Of a stretch of DNA of 64,000 nucleotides, positions 48,660-59,892 are shown one piece after another. Positions within the stretch are counted from its first letter, which is position 1; each line of letters opens with the position of its first letter. The notes below the pieces were generated by a model, which was not told the origin of the DNA, did not search any database, and saw only the letters and a list, made by a program, of their open reading frames with translations. This stretch comes from Pseudoruegeria sp. HB172150 (lineage in GTDB: Bacteria; Pseudomonadota; Alphaproteobacteria; Rhodobacterales; Rhodobacteraceae): positions 248,001-312,000 of the forward strand of contig NZ_JAATNG010000003.1 in the NCBI RefSeq assembly GCF_013184805.1, given 5' to 3'. The position numbers were made by a program, and so were the translations under genes.

Positions 48660-49646
48660 TCACTGTCTAGGTGGCCCATCGAATGCGGTGACCACGCTTT
48701 CAGGCTGCCGTCCCTCGCGCACCGCAAGGACGGCATCGACAGCGCCGTTCCAGCAGGAATTGTACATGTCGTCGGTGTTGCAGATGGCGTGGGGCGTGAG
48801 AATCACGTTTTCCAGTTGCATGAGCGGGTTTTCGGCGCCGGCCGGTTCCTCGGCGAAGACGTCGAGGGCGGCGCCGGCGAGATTGCCACCTGTCAGAGCC
48901 TCCAGCAGGGCGGGTTCATCCACGAGGCCACCGCGCGATGTGCTGATGAAGTAGGCGCCGGGCTTCATCGCGGCGAACTGTGAAGGGCCCATCATGCGGG
49001 CGGTTTCAGGCATCAGTGGGCAGGCGAGACAGAGGAAATCGGACTTTGCGACAACCGCGTCGAAGGGAAGCATCGTCACACCTTCCATCCCGCCGCGGCC
49101 TGAGCCGGTACAGGCGATGACATCCATGCCGAGACCCAGGGCGAGACGGGCGGTTTCCTTGCCGATGCGCCCGAGGCCGACAATGCCGAGAGTGCGGCCG
49201 TAGGGGGCGATGCCCTGAATCGCAGAGCGCTGGGACCAGCGGCCCGCACGGATCAGCCGGTCGAGCGGACGGATCTGTGTGGCGAGGGCGAGGGTCAGGG
49301 CGATGTTGCCCATCGCGACGGGCAGTGTGACGGCATTCGGCGTGGTCGAGACGGTGATGCGCAGGCGGTCGGCGCAGGCGATGTCCACCCGGTCGAACCC
49401 GGCGCCGAAACGGGCGACATGGCGGAGCGTCGGCGTTGCCTCCATCACCTCGGAGGAAACACGGGTCTGACGGACAATGAGGGCGGAGAGGCGGTCGAGA
49501 TCGCCGGGCCGGTATTCGGTGCGTTTCGGCAGCGGGACGGGGATACAACCGGCGGTCTCGAGGCGGTCGTAGAGCGATTGCGGAATGATGGGCGTGCCGT
49601 CGAGGCGGTAGCAGTCGTGGGAAACACCCACGCGGTAATCGGTCAT
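48660..49646 (-). CDS. D-2-hydroxyacid dehydrogenase family protein
   Basis: 328 residues. NAD-binding GIVGLGRIGKETA is near residue 155. The catalytic triad is seen as Arg in ISTSRGGLVD, Glu in DVFAEEP and His in ILTPHAICN. RFGAGFDRVDI and the VTLPVAMGNIALTL segment fit the phosphoglycerate/glycerate dehydrogenase-like group. It would interconvert a 2-oxo acid and a D-2-hydroxy acid. It is convergent with the hydrolase gene and may use the product of the TRAP/TPP pathway, which is inference from position. Confidence 0.88.
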   Translation of the reverse strand: MTDYRVGVSHDCYRLDGTPIIPQSLYDRLETAGCIPVPLPKRTEYRPGDLDRLSALIVRQTRVSSEVMEATPTLRHVARFGAGFDRVDIACADRLRITVSTTPNAVTLPVAMGNIALTLALATQIRPLDRLIRAGRWSQRSAIQGIAPYGRTLGIVGLGRIGKETARLALGLGMDVIACTGSGRGGMEGVTMLPFDAVVAKSDFLCLACPLMPETARMMGPSQFAAMKPGAYFISTSRGGLVDEPALLEALTGGNLAGAALDVFAEEPAGAENPLMQLENVILTPHAICNTDDMYNSCWNGAVDAVLAVREGRQPESVVTAFDGPPRQ

Positions 49647-49949
49647 GGTAAGGTCCGGTCAGGTCTGATCCCCGTGGCTTACCGCCAAAGCGCGGCTTAA
49701 TCCATTGATCGGATTGAGGCCGGAGGACGTAATCCCGCCGAGCGGGCTTTTTTGGGGTGACGGATCGGATCCAATCGGCTACACGGACCGCACACATGAC
49801 GACGGAGAGATCGTAGGATGCGTAACTTTAGGACCCCATTTCAGCGTTAAGCGCCGGTCCTAAACGGGTGGGCGCGTGCCCCGCCCTTCTCTGACATCCC
49901 ACGTCTCAATTTTCCGAAAATCCTGCTTCTACCCAACGGATGCATCGTC
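49647..49949. other. Gene-free interval with two structured elements
   Basis: About 300 bases between the divergent dehydrogenase and ABC exporter genes. They hold a small stem (CCCGC/GCGGG, 49734-49746) followed by CTTTTTT, which looks like a plus-strand terminator although no plus-strand gene precedes it. They also hold a 9-bp inverted repeat TTTAGGACC (49827-49835) / GGTCCTAAA (49856-49864) with a 20-nt loop. No convincing coding frame was seen. Confidence 0.55.
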
Positions 49950-51788
49950 ATGTTCCGATTCTTCGAAGACCTACTGGACCCGTTCAAGCCCTTTGACGAG
50001 GGCACACCCCCCGACCGTCTTGTGCCCTACATGTGGTCGCAGATCCGCACGCTGGGACCGTGGCTGCCGATCATGGCGCTGACCAGCCTGATCGTTGCCG
50101 TGGCCGAAAGCCTGCTGGTGTTCTATTCCGGCCGGGTCATTGACCTGATGGCCAGTGCCGGGATCAGTGATTTCTGGCAGGTGCATGGGATGGAGATGCT
50201 GGTGGCGGCGGTGGCGATCCTGTTGCTGCGGCCGGCGATGATCCTGGTCAACCACCTGCTGCTGGAGCAGACTCTGGTGGGCACCCTGCATGTTCAGTCG
50301 CAGTGGCGGGCGCATAAGCACATGCTTGGCCAGTCGATGAACTTCTTCCAGAACGACTTTGCCGGACGGCTGTCGAACCGGGTCATGCAGATGGGCCCGG
50401 CGACGGAGGATTCCGCCTATATGTTCCTGGAGGCGATCTGGTTCTCGCTGGTCTACATCATCGGCGCCGGGCTGATCGTGGCTCAGATCAACCCGTGGCT
50501 GGCGGCGGTGCTGGCAGTGTGGCTGGTGCTGTACATCCTCTACACCAAGTTCCTTGTGGTGCGGATCACCGTGGCATCCGAGAAGTGGTCGGACGGGCGG
50601 TCTGCCGTGACCGGCCGGGTCGTCGACGCCTATGCCAATATCGAGGCGGTGAAGCTGTTCGCCGGGGCGAAGGCAGAGGAGCGTTATGCGCTGTCCGCGT
50701 TCAAGCGGCTGCGGCTGCGGCTGCAGCGGTTCCTGCGGCTGGCGACCGAGATGCACCTGATGCTGAACCTGCTGAACGGCTTCCTGATGGTGGGCGTCGG
50801 CGGGCTGGCGATCTGGCTTTGGTCGCAGGGCATCATCACTATCGGCGAGGTGACGGCGGCGCTGGCGCTGACCCTGCGGCTGAACGGGATGAGCGGATGG
50901 ATCATGTGGGTCACGATCCGGCTGTTCGAGCATTTCGGGGTGATCCGCGAAGGACTGCGCAGCATATCCGTACCGCATTCCGTGGTCGACGCACCTGCCG
51001 CGCCTGCGCTCATGCGGGGGCCGGGTGAGATCCTGTTCGACGATGTGAGCCATCACTTCGGCAAGGAGTCCGGCGGGCTGGATCACGTGTCGCTGCGGAT
51101 CCGGGCGGGCGAGAAGGTGGGGCTGGTCGGGCCGTCTGGCGCCGGCAAGTCGACGTTGATCTCGTTGCTGCTGCGGTTCCGCGATGCCGAGGCGGGGCGG
51201 ATCCTGATCGACGGGCAGGACGTGTCCGCCGTGACGCAGGAAAGCCTGCGCAAGGATATCGGCGTGGTGACGCAGGACAGCTCGCTGATGCACCGGTCGA
51301 TCCGGGCGAACATCCTTTACGGCCGTCCGGATGCGGGCGATGCCGCGATGGTCGCTGCCGCGAAGCGGGCGGAGGCACACGGGTTCATCCAGGACCTGAA
51401 GGACCGGGAGGGGCGCGAGGGCTACAACGCCCATGTCGGTGAGCGCGGCGTGCGGCTGTCCGGCGGCCAGCGTCAGCGGATCGCGATTGCTCGGATGATC
51501 CTGAAGGACGCGCCGATCGTGGTGCTGGACGAAGCAACCTCGGCCCTGGACAGCGAGGTCGAGGCGGCGATCCAGCGGTCGCTTCATACGGCGATGGAAG
51601 GGAAGACGGTGATCGCGATTGCGCACCGGCTATCTACCATCGCCGAGATGGACCGGATCGTGGTGCTGAACGCGGGCCGGGTCGTCGAGGACGGGTCGCA
51701 TGACGCGCTGCTGCGGAAGGGCGGGCTTTATGCCCGGCTGTGGCAGCGGCAGTCCGGCGGGTTCCTGGCCTACTCGGCGGCGGAGTAG
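49950..51788 (+). CDS. ABC exporter, fused permease and ATPase
   Basis: 612 residues. An N-terminal ABC-transporter transmembrane domain (six helices, residues ~30-320) precedes the ATPase domain: Walker A GPSGAGKST, Q-loop, signature LSGGQRQR, Walker B IVVLDEATSALDS and switch IAHRLSTI. All catalytic elements are intact. The MsbA-like layout with a rather long first periplasmic loop allows lipid or drug export; substrate is unknown. ATG at 49950, with no strong ribosome site seen. Followed by two hairpins and a convergent secreted-protein gene. Confidence 0.92.
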   Translation: MFRFFEDLLDPFKPFDEGTPPDRLVPYMWSQIRTLGPWLPIMALTSLIVAVAESLLVFYSGRVIDLMASAGISDFWQVHGMEMLVAAVAILLLRPAMILVNHLLLEQTLVGTLHVQSQWRAHKHMLGQSMNFFQNDFAGRLSNRVMQMGPATEDSAYMFLEAIWFSLVYIIGAGLIVAQINPWLAAVLAVWLVLYILYTKFLVVRITVASEKWSDGRSAVTGRVVDAYANIEAVKLFAGAKAEERYALSAFKRLRLRLQRFLRLATEMHLMLNLLNGFLMVGVGGLAIWLWSQGIITIGEVTAALALTLRLNGMSGWIMWVTIRLFEHFGVIREGLRSISVPHSVVDAPAAPALMRGPGEILFDDVSHHFGKESGGLDHVSLRIRAGEKVGLVGPSGAGKSTLISLLLRFRDAEAGRILIDGQDVSAVTQESLRKDIGVVTQDSSLMHRSIRANILYGRPDAGDAAMVAAAKRAEAHGFIQDLKDREGREGYNAHVGERGVRLSGGQRQRIAIARMILKDAPIVVLDEATSALDSEVEAAIQRSLHTAMEGKTVIAIAHRLSTIAEMDRIVVLNAGRVVEDGSHDALLRKGGLYARLWQRQSGGFLAYSAAE

Positions 51789-51853
51789 GACGGGCCGCCT
51801 GTTCCGGATGTGAGCGAAAGTTACGCAGCCGCTGTGGTTCGCGCCAGCAACAT

Positions 51854-51938
51854 GCCGGGCGATGGGCACCGATCCCACCGCCCGGACTGACTGAACCGGA
51901 TCCGTTGCCGTCAAAAGGCAGCGACAGCAACGGGTCCG
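51854..51938. terminator. Two hairpins between convergent genes
   Basis: CCGGGCG/CGCCCGG (51854-51860, 51878-51884) and a 13-bp stem CCGGATCCGTTGC (51895-51907) / GCAACGGGTCCGG (51926-51938) with one G-U pair. Both lie between the ABC exporter stop and the convergent secreted-protein gene. There is no T-tract, so they may act as bidirectional RNA barriers and not as classical terminators. Confidence 0.45.
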
Positions 51939-51947
51939 GACATGGCT

Positions 51948-52544
51948 TTAATGGCAGTCATGAAGGGGCACCAGGCCCAGACCCCAGCTATTGCGCTTGG
52001 CCCAGATGCCGTTGATCACCTCGCCGTCGACTACCGGAAAGACGAAGGGAACGTATTCGCCCTCTTCTTTTTCGTTGAATGACTTCCAGTGCGTGTCGCC
52101 ACTCCATTTCACCTGGAAGTGAACTTCAAAGCCGTCCTCCCAAGGTACGTTGAAGATCGCAATGGTATTGGGCCGGTTTTTGACATGATCAACGAAAAGA
52201 CCCTGAAAATCACGCACCTCCGTTTTCGTGATGTTTTCACTACGGGTTTTCTTGGCAACAAGGTTGCTGTCAGACGTGTTGCCGCCCTTGTAAACGGCCA
52301 TCCTGATTTCGTTTATGTTCTTGTCTTCTCCATTTATGAGAAAGAACTTTCTTGTGGACGTCTCCGCGCTACCGCCGCGTTTCAGGTAGTCTTCCCAAAG
52401 GCCGGTATCCTCGTACTTTCGGGTGCCTTTGAATAACTTATCGCCTTCGAACCTGCACTTGGTTGCCAGAGCAGGGCTTGCAGCCGCAACAGCGAGCGGC
52501 AGGACCAGCGCGGCCAGGCTTAAGGGTTTCTTGAACCCGATCAT
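51948..52544 (-). CDS. Secreted protein of unknown function
   Basis: 198 residues. A signal peptide covers residues 1-26 (LSLAALVLPLAVAAASPALA, cleavage after ALA). The mature part is charged and beta-rich with Cys near each end (ATKCRFEG, LHDCH), which could form one disulfide. No domain was recognised. ATG at 52544 has AAAGGAAG 6 nt upstream; longer frames upstream are not protein-like. GC content is lower than average for the window. Monocistronic, with ~300 bases of gene-poor DNA on its upstream side. Confidence 0.72.
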   Translation of the reverse strand: MIGFKKPLSLAALVLPLAVAAASPALATKCRFEGDKLFKGTRKYEDTGLWEDYLKRGGSAETSTRKFFLINGEDKNINEIRMAVYKGGNTSDSNLVAKKTRSENITKTEVRDFQGLFVDHVKNRPNTIAIFNVPWEDGFEVHFQVKWSGDTHWKSFNEKEEGEYVPFVFPVVDGEVINGIWAKRNSWGLGLVPLHDCH

Positions 52545-52846
52545 GACATGCTTCCTTTCAGTATCGTTGCCGTGCCCCAAGCCCGCGGTGCCCACGGCTG
52601 AAAACACAGTTCGCCAGAATGGCCGATTGTGGCATCGATCTTTTCGCCGCGCTTGGAGAGTGGATGAAGAGTTCCGGGAGAAGATCTGCACAAGGCCCGG
52701 CGATTGGCAGAGGTTCGCTCTTCCATCTCGCCCGCATTGCATCGGCCCGGGCGCGGCCTATGGCGGGGGGCTGAAACGAAATGGCCCCGCAGTCATACCT
52801 GCGGGGCCCACTTGTCACCTGGAGCGGAGAGAGAATTTCGGGTGCG
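52545..52846. other. Gene-free interval upstream of the secreted-protein gene
   Basis: About 300 bases with no supported gene; the plus- and minus-strand open frames lack ribosome sites and protein-like composition. It holds the terminator at 52783-52808 and must contain the promoter of the secreted-protein gene. Confidence 0.5.
52783..52808 (-). terminator. Terminator-like hairpin of the 28-codon gene
   Basis: Perfect 10-bp stem GGCCCCGCAG / CTGCGGGGCC (52808-52799, 52792-52783) with a 6-nt loop, followed on the minus strand by ATTTCGTTTC. It lies 38 nt past the stop of the 28-codon minus-strand frame. Confidence 0.65.
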
Positions 52847-52933
52847 CTAAAGCGACAGCCAGAATGCGAATGCCGTCGCCGCGAACATCGCCAAATCGCC
52901 GAGCGGAACGCTCGACACATCAATCGAATGCAT
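52847..52933 (-). CDS. Putative 28-residue membrane peptide
   Basis: The product is 28 residues: an eight-residue polar start (MHSIDVSS) followed by one hydrophobic helix ending the protein (GDLAMFAATAFAFWLSL). It looks like a single-pass membrane miniprotein. ATG at 52933 has AGGA just upstream (AAAGGCAGGACTC). An AT-rich stretch (TATATATA near 53003) that could serve as a promoter lies ~70 nt upstream, and a strong hairpin follows the stop. The self-contained unit argues for a real gene, but the frame is short enough to arise by chance. Function unknown. Confidence 0.5.
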   Translation of the reverse strand: MHSIDVSSVPLGDLAMFAATAFAFWLSL

Positions 52934-53219
52934 GAGTCCTGCCTTTGTGAACTGGTTAATTTTCTCCCCGTGCAGCTTCTATCGGCAGAAACCGATTCGA
53001 TATATATAACCATTTGTACAGGCGTGATTTTCCAAGTCGGTAATGTCCGTAACCGTACACAGGGCCCGGCCGTCGACGGCCAAAAGCTGCCACCGATTGG
53101 CGCGATGCCGCCGCCCGTGCGATGGCGCCTTGGGTTTCGGCGGATCCAGCACATATGCTCTTAAAGAGTAGACGGTGCTGAAGTGTCTTCATGGCGGTTG
53201 TCTCATGCAGGAGGTGCCG

Positions 53220-53456
53220 ATGAAATCCCCCGACCAGCGTGCAATCCAGGAATTCGAGGACAAGGCTGCCTACGTGGCCATGAACATCGAATCTCATCCG
53301 AAATTCAGTGTGAAGCAGTCCCGGCTCATGAACCTGATGATGGGCGCCGAGTTACCCGCCAGCTCGCCCGAAAGCGATGCGCTGGAAGCGGCGCTTTTCC
53401 TGCTCGAACAGGTGCATCCCGCCGAGGATTATCCAGCGCTGGCCCTTCGCCGATAA
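53220..53456 (+). CDS. Small hypothetical protein, 78 residues
   Basis: ATG at 53220 has an excellent ribosome site (AGGAGG, 5 nt before). The product is soluble, acidic and helical (QRAIQEFEDKAAYVAMNIES, SPESDALEAALFLLEQ), with no Cys and no recognised domain. Monocistronic; the next gene begins 70 nt later in another frame. Function unknown. Confidence 0.68.
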   Translation: MKSPDQRAIQEFEDKAAYVAMNIESHPKFSVKQSRLMNLMMGAELPASSPESDALEAALFLLEQVHPAEDYPALALRR

Positions 53457-53526
53457 TATGATAGCTGCACTGACTGTCTTTCGCCCAGGCGCGGCGCACG
53501 ATGCAATGGAGCAGGTTGGCAGAATA

Positions 53527-53916
53527 ATGTCGCTCTGCCGTTCCGGTCGGACCTTCGCCCTGTCCATCGTGCTGGCCGTTTGCATGGCCGTTCCCGGCCA
53601 TGCGCAGGACCTGCCGCAGGCTTGGGTGCCGGAGCTCATCACGTTGCCAGCAGATACCGAAGTGATATCGAGCCGGGAGGTTGGCAGTGCAGTCAGGATG
53701 TTCTCCATCGCGACGGAGGAAGATCCGATTGCGCTGCTGGAAGGTTGGGCCGCGGCGCTGAGGGACGCTGGCTATGTTATCGAGACGGACCCGGACGAGA
53801 GTATTTTCGACGCGGTGGAGTTTTCCGGCGAAGGGCTGGTGAACGCGAAGATCGCGGTGTCTCCCACCCGGCAGGATGGGCGGGCCGTGATCGAGTTCGA
53901 TGCGACGCTGCCGTAG
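53527..53916 (+). CDS. Small secreted protein of unknown function
   Basis: 129 residues from the ATG at 53527; ATG at 53506 is an alternative. A signal peptide covers residues 1-27 (FALSIVLAVCMAVPGHAQ). The mature 100 residues are acidic (EEDPIALLEGWAAALRDAGY, DPDESIFDAVEFSGEG) and look like one alpha/beta domain in which a stress-type lipoprotein or BON-like role cannot be excluded, but I recognise no family. It is the last gene before the tRNA-derived islet. Confidence 0.65.
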   Translation: MSLCRSGRTFALSIVLAVCMAVPGHAQDLPQAWVPELITLPADTEVISSREVGSAVRMFSIATEEDPIALLEGWAAALRDAGYVIETDPDESIFDAVEFSGEGLVNAKIAVSPTRQDGRAVIEFDATLP

Positions 53917-54115
53917 GGAGGGTGGCGAGCCGCAGGGGTAACGTCGACAGTTCGATTGGTTCGTTCGCGCTTTGTCTTACCGGGACGCGTGCAGAACGTG
54001 CGCAGGCGTCCGGTGGAGCTTCGCCAAATTGGACGCCCGACGCGCCAGTCTCGCGGCGGGAGACGTCCGGACAGTCTCCGCCGGTTAGACTCTATTCGCG
54101 ATACTCGGAGTGCAC

Positions 54116-54132
54116 GGTGCCCAGGAGAGGAC
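54116..54132. repeat. Left attachment-site copy (tRNA-Leu 3' end)
   Basis: GGTGCCCAGGAGAGGAC is identical to 57647-57663, the 3' end of the tRNA-Leu gene. Neither flank matches further, so this is a direct repeat of the type left by tRNA-site integration. Confidence 0.75.
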
Positions 54133-54145
54133 CATAGATCCATAT
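54133..54145. repeat. Inner repeat, left copy
   Basis: The stretch ending AGATCCATAT (54136-54145) recurs at 57613-57622; with the preceding bases it reads CCATAGATCCATAT here and CCATAAGATCCATAT there. It lies just inside the left core repeat. Confidence 0.45.
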
Positions 54146-54299
54146 CTGGGTGTACCGTGGAAAACCACTCGCCGGTCAGCCAGAAACCAAAAGGGATATC
54201 GGGCGCCTCGGTGAATCATCCCGAGCGCGGCCAACTTCGCAGCGTACGAAGCACCATAACCCGCCAAGAAACGGGACCTTCAGCAGATCGGGCTTAGCC

Positions 54300-56819
54300 T
54301 CACGGCTTCAGCAGCTCCGCGAAGGCGCGACATTGTTTTGCTTCTTGGAGCCGGCCCGATGCTTCCTGTGCGTCGGCAAGGACCCCGTATGCGGACCGGT
54401 TCGACGGATTGCTGACTAGCGCCTGCAGCGCGTAGAGTTCCGCGCGATCGAATTTGCCGACGCGGTACGCAGCGCGCGCTGCCAACAGCCAACGTTGAGA
54501 GATATGCGGAGTCGACAACGCGATATCCTCGCATAACCGCAGCAGTTTCGCGCCTTTGGCTTTGTCTTTGCTGAAGACGCGAAACAGCGTGGCGACTGGT
54601 GCGTTGTCGATTGGTGAAAGCCGATTGGCCCGTTCAAGTGCTGTTATCGCCTTACCGGTCCGGCCCTTTCGGGCCAGAACCTGGCCGAGCAGCAGATTTG
54701 CCTTCATGTTCTGCGGATGCAGTTCAACGGCGAGGCGGGCCTCTTTTGGCGAGGTCCTCTTTGCCGCCTCAACGCGGTCGCGGATCTTCCAAGACTTCCG
54801 GACCCGGCTGATTGATTTCAGCGCGCCGAGGACATAGATGGCCGCGCCGAATTTCACTCCAATTCGCAGTCGGGTAAGTCCGACGCCTGGCGGAAGGTCT
54901 GCATACTGCATAGCCGGTAGCTGCCGCGCCGTACGTTGTGTGTAAGCTTCCCACAGCCCGCGCAGGAATCGAGGTCGATTCGCAACAGTTGCCAATGGCG
55001 AATGCTGTCCAGCTCGGCGGCCCCGGACAAACATGTCGCGAGTGAACGCTTGCCAATGTGTATGCGCCGGGTGAATGGTCTGGACATCCCGAGCCCATGC
55101 GATGCAACTCCTGGGCCTGATGCGCCGATTGAATTCGGCATCTTCCGCGATGCGAAGGCCAGGGGCGAAATAGCCGAACCTCCGAAACAGGCGTCTGGCG
55201 TAGGACACGCCGAAATGGCCCACCTTGTCCGGCGGGGTATCGGGCAACCTCCAGGCATAAAGAGAGAGGTGTGACACCAGGCTGACTACTGTATCTCCCG
55301 GTTGCGGAACCACGGCCGAAGAGACTGCGTCCGCTCCGGCATGATGCCGTTGCAGCCGCCCGGATATCCAGCCCTGGCGCGCCCGACAGTCCGAAGCAAG
55401 AAATGCGACATACGCCCCCTCCGACGCATCGATGCCGATGTTACGCGCGGCCCCGACATACAGTCGTTCTTGCACATTGATCAGACGTATGTGGTCGAGG
55501 TGTTCAGCCAGCACAGCAATAGGGTCGCCGCCGCCCGAGTTGACGACAACTATCTCGGCGGCCGTGTCCTGAGCCCGAATTGATTTCACGGCCGATGCAA
55601 GGCCCTGCGGGGCTCTTAGACCGATGACCACGACAGCCATCTCGGCGGCCGTCACCAACTTCCCTTCGTGGATTTCGGCGTCACCCGAAACCCATCGCCG
55701 CCAGTTTGCGGTGTCCAATGAGAAGCGATCGGCGCCGTCCGACAGTTGGTGGAGCAGGCGGTCAGCCGGGATCATGCCCGGATCGACAGTCAGAAGCCGG
55801 CTTAGCCATTCGCGGGCCTCCACCGGTCGACCGGATGCCAAAAGCGCATTTGCCTTTAGCCAGAAGCCTGCAGTGAACTCTGGCCGGTTCCGAAGTAGTG
55901 CATCCGCAATCTCTACCGCCTCGCGAGCGGCACCCGCTTCGAGGGCAACTGCATTGCGCACGGCTTGCAGCGCAAGGACCTGTGGATTCCGGGACGCGAG
56001 CCTTTCCGCAACTTCGCCGGCCTGTTGAAGATTGCCCGTCCTGCGATGGTGTTGCAGAATGCCGAGTTGCGCGACCATAGGATCGTCGGCGGGAACACCT
56101 TTATTCTTACACGGGGCAGCAGCCCAGAGACCACAATCCTCAACATGGGCTGGACTGAATTCCCTTCCTGGGGGAATGGTCTCGAGTTGCAGGTCGGTTT
56201 CATCGGTCAGGTAATCATAGCCAATTGCTTGGTATCGGCGATCAGGATCGAGTCGGGCATATAGGTCCCTGCGAAGACGACGACGTTCTGGCAGTATCAT
56301 TCTCAAGTGGTAAAGGTTCAGCCCGGTTTGCCTCATCTGCAGCCTTGCCTGCGGATCAACCCATCGTCCGTGCAGAGCCTCTCCGCTGGCTGCGACTCCG
56401 TCGAGCAAAGGAAAAAGCCGCATCTGCTTTTTTCGACCCCAGATCCCATCAACTCGATAGGCGTCCGGGGCATACAATTCCCGCGCGTCAAACACCCAGC
56501 CAACGGGCTCGGCCGTCGATGTCAGCGCCCGAATCTCGTCTGCCAAACGGTTCTCGAAGCGCTCGTCTGGATCGACTGCCAGCAACCAATCCGCCCCAGC
56601 CTTTCGGGCTGCGGCGATGAGGGCGCTTCGTCTCGCCGGTTCGCTGGAATAGGCATTCTCTGCGTCCCGGTCGTCCCAGGATACCCAGCCATCAACAATT
56701 GGTGTCAGGTTCTCAATCAGCGCAGGGACAAGATTGACGTCATAGCGAAAGGAAAAAGCGGCAAATACCGCGGTTGCTCTGGCAGCTCGCGGTCTTCCCG
56801 TAGTCTGGGTCTCAATCAA
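54300..56819 (-). CDS. Large protein with two glycosyltransferase-like domains and TPR segments
   Basis: 839 residues from a TTG at 56819 with GGAG 8 nt upstream. Residues ~15-230 resemble a family 2 glycosyltransferase with metal site VDPDERFE. Residues ~250-370 and ~690-839 look like tetratricopeptide helices (AVELHPQNMKANLLLGQVLA, RKGRTGKAITALERANRLSP). Residues ~400-620 are a second GT2-like domain (VVVIGLRAPQGLASAVKSI, LYVGAARNIGIDASEG, FLASDCRARQGW). GC content is visibly below the neighbours. It is the only clear gene inside the tRNA-Leu islet. Enzymatic activity and substrate are inferred from fold only. Confidence 0.8.
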   Translation of the reverse strand: MIETQTTGRPRAARATAVFAAFSFRYDVNLVPALIENLTPIVDGWVSWDDRDAENAYSSEPARRSALIAAARKAGADWLLAVDPDERFENRLADEIRALTSTAEPVGWVFDARELYAPDAYRVDGIWGRKKQMRLFPLLDGVAASGEALHGRWVDPQARLQMRQTGLNLYHLRMILPERRRLRRDLYARLDPDRRYQAIGYDYLTDETDLQLETIPPGREFSPAHVEDCGLWAAAPCKNKGVPADDPMVAQLGILQHHRRTGNLQQAGEVAERLASRNPQVLALQAVRNAVALEAGAAREAVEIADALLRNRPEFTAGFWLKANALLASGRPVEAREWLSRLLTVDPGMIPADRLLHQLSDGADRFSLDTANWRRWVSGDAEIHEGKLVTAAEMAVVVIGLRAPQGLASAVKSIRAQDTAAEIVVVNSGGGDPIAVLAEHLDHIRLINVQERLYVGAARNIGIDASEGAYVAFLASDCRARQGWISGRLQRHHAGADAVSSAVVPQPGDTVVSLVSHLSLYAWRLPDTPPDKVGHFGVSYARRLFRRFGYFAPGLRIAEDAEFNRRIRPRSCIAWARDVQTIHPAHTHWQAFTRDMFVRGRRAGQHSPLATVANRPRFLRGLWEAYTQRTARQLPAMQYADLPPGVGLTRLRIGVKFGAAIYVLGALKSISRVRKSWKIRDRVEAAKRTSPKEARLAVELHPQNMKANLLLGQVLARKGRTGKAITALERANRLSPIDNAPVATLFRVFSKDKAKGAKLLRLCEDIALSTPHISQRWLLAARAAYRVGKFDRAELYALQALVSNPSNRSAYGVLADAQEASGRLQEAKQCRAFAELLKP

Positions 56820-57645
56820 TCATTCTGCTCCGGGGGATTCCTAGTATGTATCCTGCCTAGGCAATCTCCTTGCCGGGGTGGAATGTGCAGGTGCAAAGGC
56901 CGGCAGGCCCTTGTCCCATTCAGATTTGGAAAGGCGATAGTGGGCTGTTCAGCGGCGAGCTTTGATTCAGTGTATGTGATTTGTTAACTGCTTTTGCACC
57001 CTTGGGCTGGGCTTATGCAACCGCTTCCATATGTTCATCCGCGAGTGGCCCTCGCAGCGCCTCCCCCGCTCCATGGAGTGTTCGGCGCAGTCCCCCATTC
57101 CACTGGTATCCTCAGGTTACCGAATGGGTCGGTTGCGAAGTTGGTGTTTGGCGGAAAAGTCAGAAACCCATATGGGTCGTCTTCGGGTTTGCCGTCCTTC
57201 ACCTTCCGAATTGATTTCGACTCGGGCACATGTTGGCGAGTCAGGAAAACGCACCGTCAGCGTCTCGGAGCTGAGAACTCTTGCTGCTGCGATTGATCGG
57301 TTCGGTGAACTGGCCAAACGGAACCACGTACGAGTGCTCGGGCCCCCAGCGCCGACAGTGCGGCGAACCGGTGTTGAGGATATTTGGTACGCCGCGATCC
57401 GCGTTCCTCTTGATGAACTGCGGTGGCGGCGCTCAGGGCAAATTCGATGCCGACGTGAAGCCATTACACAACTGGACCGCTACATGAGCAGCGGGAACCG
57501 TTCCGGTCCACCCGTATCTCGTAGGCGGATTCATGAACTTACTTCGCCAAACGGTTGTCTGGCGTCGCGAAGGTCGGCGGGAAAGTGGATTGGTTTCGCA
57601 CTGCGGTCCATAAGATCCATATAACATGACGTTGCTTTGGATATA
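56820..57645. other. Unassigned 0.8-kb part of the islet
   Basis: Several overlapping open frames exist on both strands, the longest at 57031-57624 (plus), 56994-57296 (plus) and 57035-57229 (minus). None has a ribosome site, known motif or convincing codon use. I looked for integrase signatures (Arg...His-x-x-Arg, catalytic Tyr) and did not find any. It may hold a decayed gene. Confidence 0.55.
57608..57622. repeat. Inner repeat, right copy
   Basis: CCATAAGATCCATAT, matching the left inner repeat at 54132-54145 with one extra A. It lies 24 nt inside the right core repeat. Confidence 0.45.
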
Positions 57646-57732
57646 TGGTGCCCAGGAGAGGACTCGAACCTCCACGTCCATACGGACACTAGCACCTGAA
57701 GCTAGCGCGTCTACCAATTCCGCCACCTGGGC
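57646..57732 (-). tRNA. tRNA-Leu (anticodon CAG)
   Basis: 87 nt including an encoded CCA. Acceptor stem GCCCAGG (57732-57726) pairs with CCTGGGC (57656-57650), and the anticodon loop TTCAGGT gives CAG at 57698-57696, reading CUG. A long variable arm marks a class II leucine tRNA, and the T-loop GGTTCGAGTCC is normal. Its 3' end is the islet integration site and remains intact. A near-consensus promoter lies just upstream. Confidence 0.95.
57647..57663. repeat. Right attachment-site copy within tRNA-Leu
   Basis: The 17-bp core GGTGCCCAGGAGAGGAC covers the terminal CC, discriminator, acceptor 3' strand and part of the T stem. It is identical to 54116-54132. Confidence 0.75.
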
Positions 57733-57887: not shown

Positions 57888-58688
57888 TCAGAGCAGGCTG
57901 GCGATGTTGTCGACGAAGGTGTCGCGGGTTTCTCCGAGCACGATTTGCGTCTCCTGGAAGGCGCGCTCGGTGAGGCTGATCAGAGCGTGATCCACCGGCA
58001 GTCCGAGCGCCGGGAACAGCGACACTTCGAGCACAGTGCGGTTGGTGTCCGTCGTGCGGACGCCTTCGACCACACCGATATGTTTCATGTCGCTGGACAG
58101 GACCGGCAGGCCGACCAGAATCGCGGGGTTGATCGGTTGACCGGGACCTGAGGCGGAACCGTTGCCGGTGCCGGCGGGCGAGGTGGCGACGAATTCAGCG
58201 GTGCCGGTCGCGGCCGAGGCGCCGGAGGTGCCTGTTCCGGCGGCTGGATCGGTGCCCGCAACGGCCGTGCCGCCGCCTTCAGATCCACCGATCTCGACAT
58301 CGGTACCGACACCGGAGCCGGCACTGCCGTTAATGTCGGCTGTGGCTGTACCGCCGAGCAGGTCGATGTCGGCATTGGTTCCGTCGCCGCCGCCTATGTC
58401 CGCGTCGGCCCCGGCGACGTCGTTGCCGATATCGACATCTGCTTCGGCGCCGTCCCCGCCGCCGACATCCACATCGGCCTCGGCGACGCTGTCGCCGACG
58501 GAAGCGTCCGCCTCGGTCCCGCTGCCGCCGCCGATGCTGACATTTGCTTCGGCAGTGTCGGCGGCGCCCACATTGGCGTTGACGCCGTCATCGGTATTCA
58601 CGTCGACATCGAGGGTTTGCGCATTGAGCACACCTGCGGCGCCCAGAACAGTTGCACTGACTACAAGGATTCTCGAGATACTACGCAT
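57888..58688 (-). CDS. Exported acidic-repeat protein with C-terminal PRC-barrel-like domain
   Basis: 266 residues. A signal peptide covers residues 1-24 (ILVVSATVLGAAGVLNAQ). Residues ~25-125 are imperfect ~14-residue repeats of the form GGGDGxxADVDIG, very rich in Asp, Gly, Ala and Val. Residues ~130-180 are a Gly/Ala/Thr linker. The last ~80 residues (LVGLPVLSSDMKHIGVVEGV, DHALISLTERAFQETQIVLG) resemble a PRC-barrel fold. The repeat resembles Asp/Gly-rich calcium-binding or secreted matrix segments, but no function is established. Monocistronic, between tRNA-Leu and an NDUFA9-like gene. Confidence 0.8.
   Translation of the reverse strand: MRSISRILVVSATVLGAAGVLNAQTLDVDVNTDDGVNANVGAADTAEANVSIGGGSGTEADASVGDSVAEADVDVGGGDGAEADVDIGNDVAGADADIGGGDGTNADIDLLGGTATADINGSAGSGVGTDVEIGGSEGGGTAVAGTDPAAGTGTSGASAATGTAEFVATSPAGTGNGSASGPGQPINPAILVGLPVLSSDMKHIGVVEGVRTTDTNRTVLEVSLFPALGLPVDHALISLTERAFQETQIVLGETRDTFVDNIASLL
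58313..58616 (-). repeat. Imperfect coding repeats encoding GGGDGxxADVDIG units
   Basis: Roughly seven degenerate ~40-nt units, within the acidic-repeat protein gene, share the alternating GGCGGCGAC/GCCGACGTCGATATC pattern. Confidence 0.65.
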
Positions 58689-58911
58689 GGTTCTCTCCTT
58701 TCAGTAGAGTTGGCCTGCGACGTAATGTCCCGATGCGCGACGGCGCGTATCTGCCATTTCAGCGCCACAATCTGAGCGGAAATCCGCCGATTCATGTCGA
58801 CTCAGGAGTGGGTAAGTGGGTGGCTGGCCAGTACCGGCGCGACTTATTGGCGGGTTGTTCTGCGCGCGCGCGGCAGCTAAGGAATTGGCCAGCGAAAGGC
58901 GGAGGCTGGCC

Positions 58912-59892
58912 ATGTCGAAACTCGTTACCATCTACGGCGGATCGGGCTTTATCGGGCGGTATATCGCTCGGCGGATGGCGAAAGAGGGCTGGCGCGTGCG
59001 GGTGGCCGTGCGGCGGCCGGAGCTGGCCGGTTTCGTGCGGCCCTATGGCGTGGTCGGGCAGGTCGAGCCGATCTTCTGCAATATCCGGGACGATGCCAGC
59101 GTGTGCGCGGCGATGCACGGATCTGACGCGGTGGTGAACTGCGTCGGCACCTTCGACGCGAAGGGCAAGAACAATTTCGATGCCGTGCAGCATGAGGGTG
59201 CCGAGCGGATCGCCCGGATCGCGGCGGAGCAGGGCGTTTCGCGGCTGGTGCATATCTCGGCGCTGGGCGCCGATGCCGAGAGCGAAAGCGGCTATGCCCG
59301 GAGCAAGGCCGAAGGCGAAGCGGCGGTTCTGTCGCATTTCCCCGGCGCTGTCATCCTGCGGCCTTCGGTCGTATTCGGCCCCGAGGACGAGTTCTTCAAC
59401 CGCTTCGGGGCGATGGCCCGTTTCGGCTGGGTGCTGCCCGTTGTCGGCGGCGAAACGCGGTTTCAGCCGGTCTATGTTGACGATGTGGCGAGGGCCGCAG
59501 TCATGGGCGCGCTGGGACAGGCGGAGCCCGGCGTGTACGAGCTGGGCGGGCCGCACGTGGCGACATTCCGCGAACTGATGGAAGACATGCTGGAGATCAT
59601 CCGGCGCAAGCGCCTGATCTTCAACATGCCGTTCTGGCTGGGCGGTCTGGTGGCCTGGCTAGGTGAGCTTGCATCCATCCTGACCGTCGGCCTGATCAAT
59701 CCGCCGGTCACGCGCGACCAGGTGCGGCAGTTGCGCGCCGACAACGTCGTGTCGGAGGGCGCCAAGGGCTTCGCGGCGCTGGGCATTCAGCCGACGGCGA
59801 TGGAAGCGGAACTGCCGGAATACCTGTGGGCCTACCGGCCATCGGGGCAGTATGCGGCGATCAAGGAATCGGCGCGGAACCAGCGGGCGTGA
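58912..59892 (+). CDS. NAD(P)-binding protein, complex I NDUFA9 subunit-like
   Basis: 326 residues. An atypical SDR fold with the nucleotide motif TIYGGSGFIGRYIARRM at the N-terminus, VVNCVGTF, RLVHISALGAD and FQPVYVDDVARA. It matches the NDUFA9/39-kDa subunit family, members of which are linked to alphaproteobacterial complex I assembly or membrane redox proteins. No catalytic Tyr-x3-Lys pair is obvious, as usual for this group. ATG at 58912 has GGAGG 7 nt upstream; longer frames do not align. No nuo genes lie nearby. Confidence 0.85.
   Translation: MSKLVTIYGGSGFIGRYIARRMAKEGWRVRVAVRRPELAGFVRPYGVVGQVEPIFCNIRDDASVCAAMHGSDAVVNCVGTFDAKGKNNFDAVQHEGAERIARIAAEQGVSRLVHISALGADAESESGYARSKAEGEAAVLSHFPGAVILRPSVVFGPEDEFFNRFGAMARFGWVLPVVGGETRFQPVYVDDVARAAVMGALGQAEPGVYELGGPHVATFRELMEDMLEIIRRKRLIFNMPFWLGGLVAWLGELASILTVGLINPPVTRDQVRQLRADNVVSEGAKGFAALGIQPTAMEAELPEYLWAYRPSGQYAAIKESARNQRA

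Follow-up and report, generated by a model that had tools for sequence, protein, structure and literature searches.

The window analysed here is a 64,000-nt stretch of the genome of Pseudoruegeria sp. HB172150 (contig NZ_JAATNG010000003.1, positions 248,001-312,000), within which a 3.5-kb islet lies between two copies of the 3' end of a tRNA-Leu(CAG) gene. The tRNA gene (57646-57732, minus strand), the presumed target, is intact and encodes its CCA according to both ARAGORN and the sequence itself. The 17 bp at its 3' end (57647-57663, minus strand) form the putative tRNA-side attachment core, and an exact copy of them (54116-54132, minus strand), in which the last A of the CCA is unmatched, forms the displaced core at the distal end of the islet. 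Between the cores the islet (54133-57646, no strand assigned) is delimited by the repeat, a post-core motif, an arm-type pair and its GC content, which at 59.0% vs 63.2% for the window falls within the lowest 0.7% of 3.5-kb stretches. It carries an open frame of 839 amino acids (54300-56819, minus strand), identified from Pfam, alignments and a structure model as a glycosyltransferase with a family 2 (GT2) domain (residues 401-511) and TPR, and a decayed SOS-response-associated peptidase (SRAP) gene in two frames (57038-57432, minus strand). An initial annotation, made from the letters alone, had described a 17-bp direct repeat in attL/attR-like orientation, an intact tRNA end with its CCA, lowered GC and one large glycosyltransferase-TPR gene, all of which were borne out.

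The repeated sequence, GGTGCCCAGGAGAGGAC, occurs at the two places on the same strand with a spacing of 3531 bp, and in the genome of 5,055,836 bases these are the only exact copies; when up to two mismatches were allowed, one further place was found, on another contig. Of 20 tRNA-Leu regions compared in relatives, four (L054, L058, L064 and L072) stretch under 4 kb past the tRNA and could hide a farther repeat. In 18 of the 20, no repeat of the tRNA end exceeds 11 bp; the 17-bp repeat is therefore beyond chance. The two exceptions, G013 and G022, are both elements with integrases. The locus thus presents an intact tRNA gene and a displaced 3' fragment in direct orientation, the arrangement of a tRNA-integrated island.

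A search for relatives of the G013 integrase, in which no more than four candidates were scored per genome, gave matches at E<=1e-30 in 204 of the 394 family genomes. Thirty loci were returned with flanks, a set that does not contain L070 and L085. A core-like start, GGTGC, lies upstream in all 30, an arm-type pair lies just before the integrase in 27, and many loci share a motif just inside the core, whichever tRNA-like core is present. From 45 bases inside the core of 24 ends (22 of the 30 loci plus L070 and L085), with the core and the window excluded, we built a post-core profile. Its top match in the 64-kb window is at 54136-54168 (plus strand), directly inside the left 17-mer, with 13.2 bits and an E value of 0.0058, the next match scoring 5.1 bits. 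A profile of all 30 loci gave 11.7 bits (E 0.019) for the window match and 2.7 bits for the next, while L070, whose true end lies outside that profile, reached 13.7 bits. Across 57 other loci (880 kb, partly overlapping) used as background, the best score outside the profile was 8.2 bits, and only L088, L069 and L070, all members of the profile, scored above the window. The post-core motif that marks the G013-type subfamily is thus found at what would have been the integrase-proximal end of the islet.

At the right end of complete elements, a pair of arm-type words with 12-bp spacing starts 76-77 bp before the core; this right-end pair is exact in L069, L070 and L088, has 2 mismatches in L084 and was not found in L089, L083 or L086. 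The islet has a degenerate pair (AGGTCGGC / AAGTGGAT, 12 bp apart) at 57571-57590 (plus strand), 76 bp from the core, with mismatches at 3 of 16 positions. Random stretches of the window matched as well in 16 of 20,000 cases when placed at 75-79 bp with the 12-bp spacing, and in 195 of 20,000 over a wider range. Both ends of the islet carry the sequence marks of one tRNA-targeting tyrosine integrase subfamily, the right one in degenerate form.

The same tRNA end has been used elsewhere in the family. Its 15-bp core is present in 185 of 295 family genomes scanned, and 20 of these hold at least two copies on the same strand. The copies lie on one contig in 14 genomes; those with copies on different contigs (G070, G140, G230, G247, G254 and G275) were left out. 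Four of the 14 (G106, G212, G095 and G257) have two whole tRNA-Leu genes and ten have a tRNA with a displaced fragment, namely the genome studied here and G013, G022, G072, G285, G269, G179, G161, G143 and G149, in the last of which the tRNA is cut by the contig end and none was called. The repeats measure 17-26 bp in the eight of these nine others in which they were measured, and the smallest element is the 1.0-kb one of G285, the largest that of G143 at about 23 kb. An integrase lies just inside the displaced core in G013, G022, G072 and G161, the four of the nine for which its position was settled; G247 and G157 also have one next to a core. In the congener G001 a tyrosine integrase (L054, 603-1787) is directly beside tRNA-Leu(CAG), the contig breaking off 2 kb from the tRNA. 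tRNA-Leu(CAG) is an integration hotspot in the family, with nine other genomes carrying a displaced fragment and four of them an integrase beside it. A published account names tRNA-Leu as a prophage site in Rhodobacteraceae, in a passage that does not give the isoacceptor (PMC8224337).

Several further observations were made at these tRNA loci. The two whole tRNA-Leu(CAG) genes of the four genomes (loci L080, L081, L082 and L087) stand 0.3 to 15 kb apart. The integrase end of G001 at L054 carries different repeated words (GATACCCGCA). In G007 a 132-amino-acid piece (L066, 14774-15172) with 48% identity to the N-terminus of the G001 integrase adjoins tRNA-Leu(CAG) and is possibly another decayed element. 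The 1.0-kb islet of G285 (L089, 3550-4556) has the same tRNA core, one NYN-domain open reading frame and, close to the left end, the triple repeat GTTGCGGGAATG; no integrase was found in it.

The glycosyltransferase is a rare, fast-diverging gene that has been kept open beside a decaying one. The N-terminal part of the 839-amino-acid protein bears a weak likeness to a second GT2 domain (PF13704, E 0.18). Its structure model has a mean pLDDT of 83.9 and a pTM of 0.67, and among solved structures it best matches sugar transferases, WrtF and AvpGT for example, at whole-length TM-scores that are low; the label of surface-glycan gene given to it in the initial annotation is a guess. Matches at E<=1e-40 occur in six of 393 other family genomes, with the best two candidates scored in each, and no second copy at that threshold was found in its own genome. 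Identity to 12 aligned homologues is 35-40%. None of the four congeners has a full-length homologue, only partial GT2 or TPR matches with best E values per genome of 6.5e-4 to 8.6e-7. No match was found in PLSDB plasmids or, with the single protein as query, in IMG/VR; an alignment query of IMG/VR returned nine contigs in which the match is confined to about residues 11-227.

A homologue lies about 100 bp from tRNA-Leu(CAG) in Gemmobacter tilapiae and about 6 kb from it in Fuscovulum blasticum, in both cases in the opposite direction relative to the tRNA compared with the window; in Tabrizicola aquatica the distance to tRNA-Leu is about 170 kb. In six Rhodobacter-, Tabrizicola-, Fuscovulum- and Gemmobacter-type loci (L131, L138-L141 and L154) the gene adjoins one conserved cluster, which we take to be ccm-like, and the same cluster flanks tRNA-Leu in other relatives. 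Among these six loci the glycosyltransferases are 34-72% identical, many cluster proteins 73-94% and others down to 38%. A tRNA was found within about 7 kb of the homologue in six of 36 loci (Thr in L131, Ala in L134, Leu-CAG in L139 and L154, Leu-GAG in L145 and Lys in L160), a count for which no significance is claimed; some loci are short, and a tRNA-Arg called inside the L138 glycosyltransferase gene was taken as false.

The decayed gene lies in the approximately 0.8 kb that the initial annotation had called unassignable, a description that has to be corrected for 57038-57432. The two pieces match plasmid records annotated as SRAP, one at 63.6% identity (E 8e-9, residues 3-45), the other at 43.3% (E 4e-5); a Pfam search of the pieces gave no match. 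The open reading frame at 57031-57624 had no match in viral contigs, PHROGs or Pfam. Because a broken SRAP-family gene stands beside it, the glycosyltransferase was not the sole original cargo, contrary to what had been proposed.

To the right, 20 of the 22 scanned loci of relatives have both the tRNA and an epimerase gene (58816-59892), seven more distant loci being outside that scan. Between the two the window holds a repeat-rich gene of 266 amino acids (57888-58688, with 69-bp repeats) that has no counterpart in the relatives' loci compared. To the left, synteny with the congeners G002 and G004 extends up to 48604, and nothing is shared from there to the tRNA; G003 has no left-side gene in common except for an ABC match, which is weak, and the contig of G001 reaches only 2 kb there. 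Within this left flank the gene at 53377-53916 is present in six of 197 other family genomes, including G003, where it is on a contig other than that of tRNA-Leu, and 51790-53376 is low in GC (56.5%). The ABC transporter of the flank 48660-54115 has its best match (64%) in G007, elsewhere in that genome.

Taken together, these features lead us to read 54116-57663 as what is left of an old integrative element that inserted at the 3' end of tRNA-Leu(CAG) and has since lost its integrase by deletion, leaving a unit like a cis-mobilizable element (CIME); we give this reading a probability of roughly 0.85. Entry would have been through a P4-type tyrosine integrase with crossover within GGTGCCCAGGAGAGGAC, the element's own copy restoring the tRNA and the original end being pushed 3.5 kb away. 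A later deletion would then have removed the integrase gene and the left arm pair. Among relatives the integrase starts about 150 bp from the core start; in the window the distance from the core inward to the end of the glycosyltransferase frame is about 170 bp. What remains would be a CIME-like unit with two attachment sites and one GT2-TPR gene, its frame still open. The unit is probably unable to move on its own. Movement would depend on an integrase with the same specificity acting in trans, and even that is doubtful because the arm sites are damaged. Of the two origins offered by the initial annotation, a deleted element fits better, and a minimal unit moved by an integrase from elsewhere fits less, the left arms being gone and the right pair degenerate. 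Vertical conservation of the whole segment, named there as an observation that would speak against an islet, was not seen, and no full-length glycosyltransferase homologue was found in the four congeners.

Several observations weigh against this reading. A tblastn search, with an N-terminal piece and three integrases as queries, found neither an integrase nor a recognizable remnant inside the islet, as the initial annotation had led us to expect; the best hit (E 0.067) lies outside it, and all hits were noise. The left arm pair was not found in the islet, and the arm profile alone does not report the right pair. A profile built from 18 ends whose cores are unlike tRNA-Leu(CAG) still ranks the place at 54136 first, weakly, at 8.3 bits (E 0.23). 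The displaced ends of G285, G269, G179, G161, G143 and G149 score below 8 bits, one of these ends being L085, itself part of the profile, so the post-core mark covers one subfamily only. The distal core of the window lacks the A of the CCA, having a C where all ten other distal copies, from nine genomes, have a T; one later substitution would explain this. Finally, no empty site was seen, and in the congeners with readable flanks this place is not occupied by 48660-54115.

The last of these points allows for a tandem array, in which 48660-54115 would be a second, older element and 54116 an internal attachment site, an arrangement compatible with a relic on its right. The absence of that flank from this place in congeners and the low GC of 51790-53376 agree with it, as does the accretion at attachment sites outlined for CIMEs in PMC5704250, but no third copy of the core was found in the window, and we regard the array as unlikely, though the least so of the alternatives. 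More improbable is that the islet never had an integrase and was moved as a non-autonomous mini-element by resident integrases with the same tRNA-Leu specificity. The 1.0-kb integrase-free islet at the same core in G285 gives this idea a precedent. A further point in its favour is that the Pseudoruegeria genome, in which all eight PF00589 places found lie outside the islet, has at least one integrase of the same subfamily on another contig. This integrase (L101, C1:2436616-2437740) is 49% identical to that of G013. Against the idea, it adjoins a different core-like sequence, GGTGCGGTCGAGAGG, together with an arm-like pair; no tRNA was found in the 3.4-kb locus. The missing left arm pair and the degenerate right one also speak against a mini-element, as does the lack of a second glycosyltransferase copy at E<=1e-40 in the genome, and the decayed gene inside speaks for age.

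The least probable alternative is vertical: the glycosyltransferase gene would be an old neighbour of tRNA-Leu(CAG), and the 17-mer a chance remnant of a tRNA. Its proximity to this tRNA in Gemmobacter tilapiae and Fuscovulum blasticum, and the six loci in which it adjoins a cluster that flanks tRNA-Leu in other relatives, are what such a history would predict. However, all four congeners lack a full-length homologue, the gene is reversed relative to the tRNA in Gemmobacter and Fuscovulum, the Tabrizicola aquatica homologue is about 170 kb away, identity to the 12 aligned homologues is only 35-40%, and the integrase marks are left unexplained. In a broader conjecture, tRNA-Leu(CAG) in Rhodobacteraceae might host integrase-free mini-islets (the 3.5-kb one here, the 1.0-kb one with the NYN gene in G285) that borrow the integrases of larger elements with the same core, the glycosyltransferase having been captured, in the manner of specialized transduction, from a lineage in which it stands beside this tRNA, as in Gemmobacter. 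We think this improbable as well.

As a relic of an integrative element, the islet resembles known systems in part. With the CIMEs outlined in PMC5704250 it shares two attachment-like sites (attL and attR kept), the loss of the integration genes and retained cargo; it differs in that, known here from its sequence, it gives no sign of a conjugative ancestor, and no transfer genes were seen among the islet reading frames scanned. With the tRNA islands sought by Islander, as presented in PMC4383910, it shares a tRNA gene and a displaced 3' fragment, correctly ordered and oriented, but it holds no integrase gene, which that pipeline requires, and would be rejected by it. Closest are the complete tRNA-Leu(CAG) elements such as G013 (4.3 kb) and G072 (4.6 kb), which have the same core, post-core motif and distance of the arm pair, and differ in having an integrase beside the distal core where the window has none. 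A literature search of limited depth found no description of this locus. The islet is real and well marked but of an already known type, and is biologically modest. Its value lies in showing that an integrase-less islet, of a sort that searches requiring an integrase skip, can be told by a pair of short marks in non-coding DNA. The arm pair at 76-77 bp from the core and the post-core motif (roughly CATnnAATnCCTATATCTTG) could serve to find other orphaned elements of this subfamily in Rhodobacteraceae.

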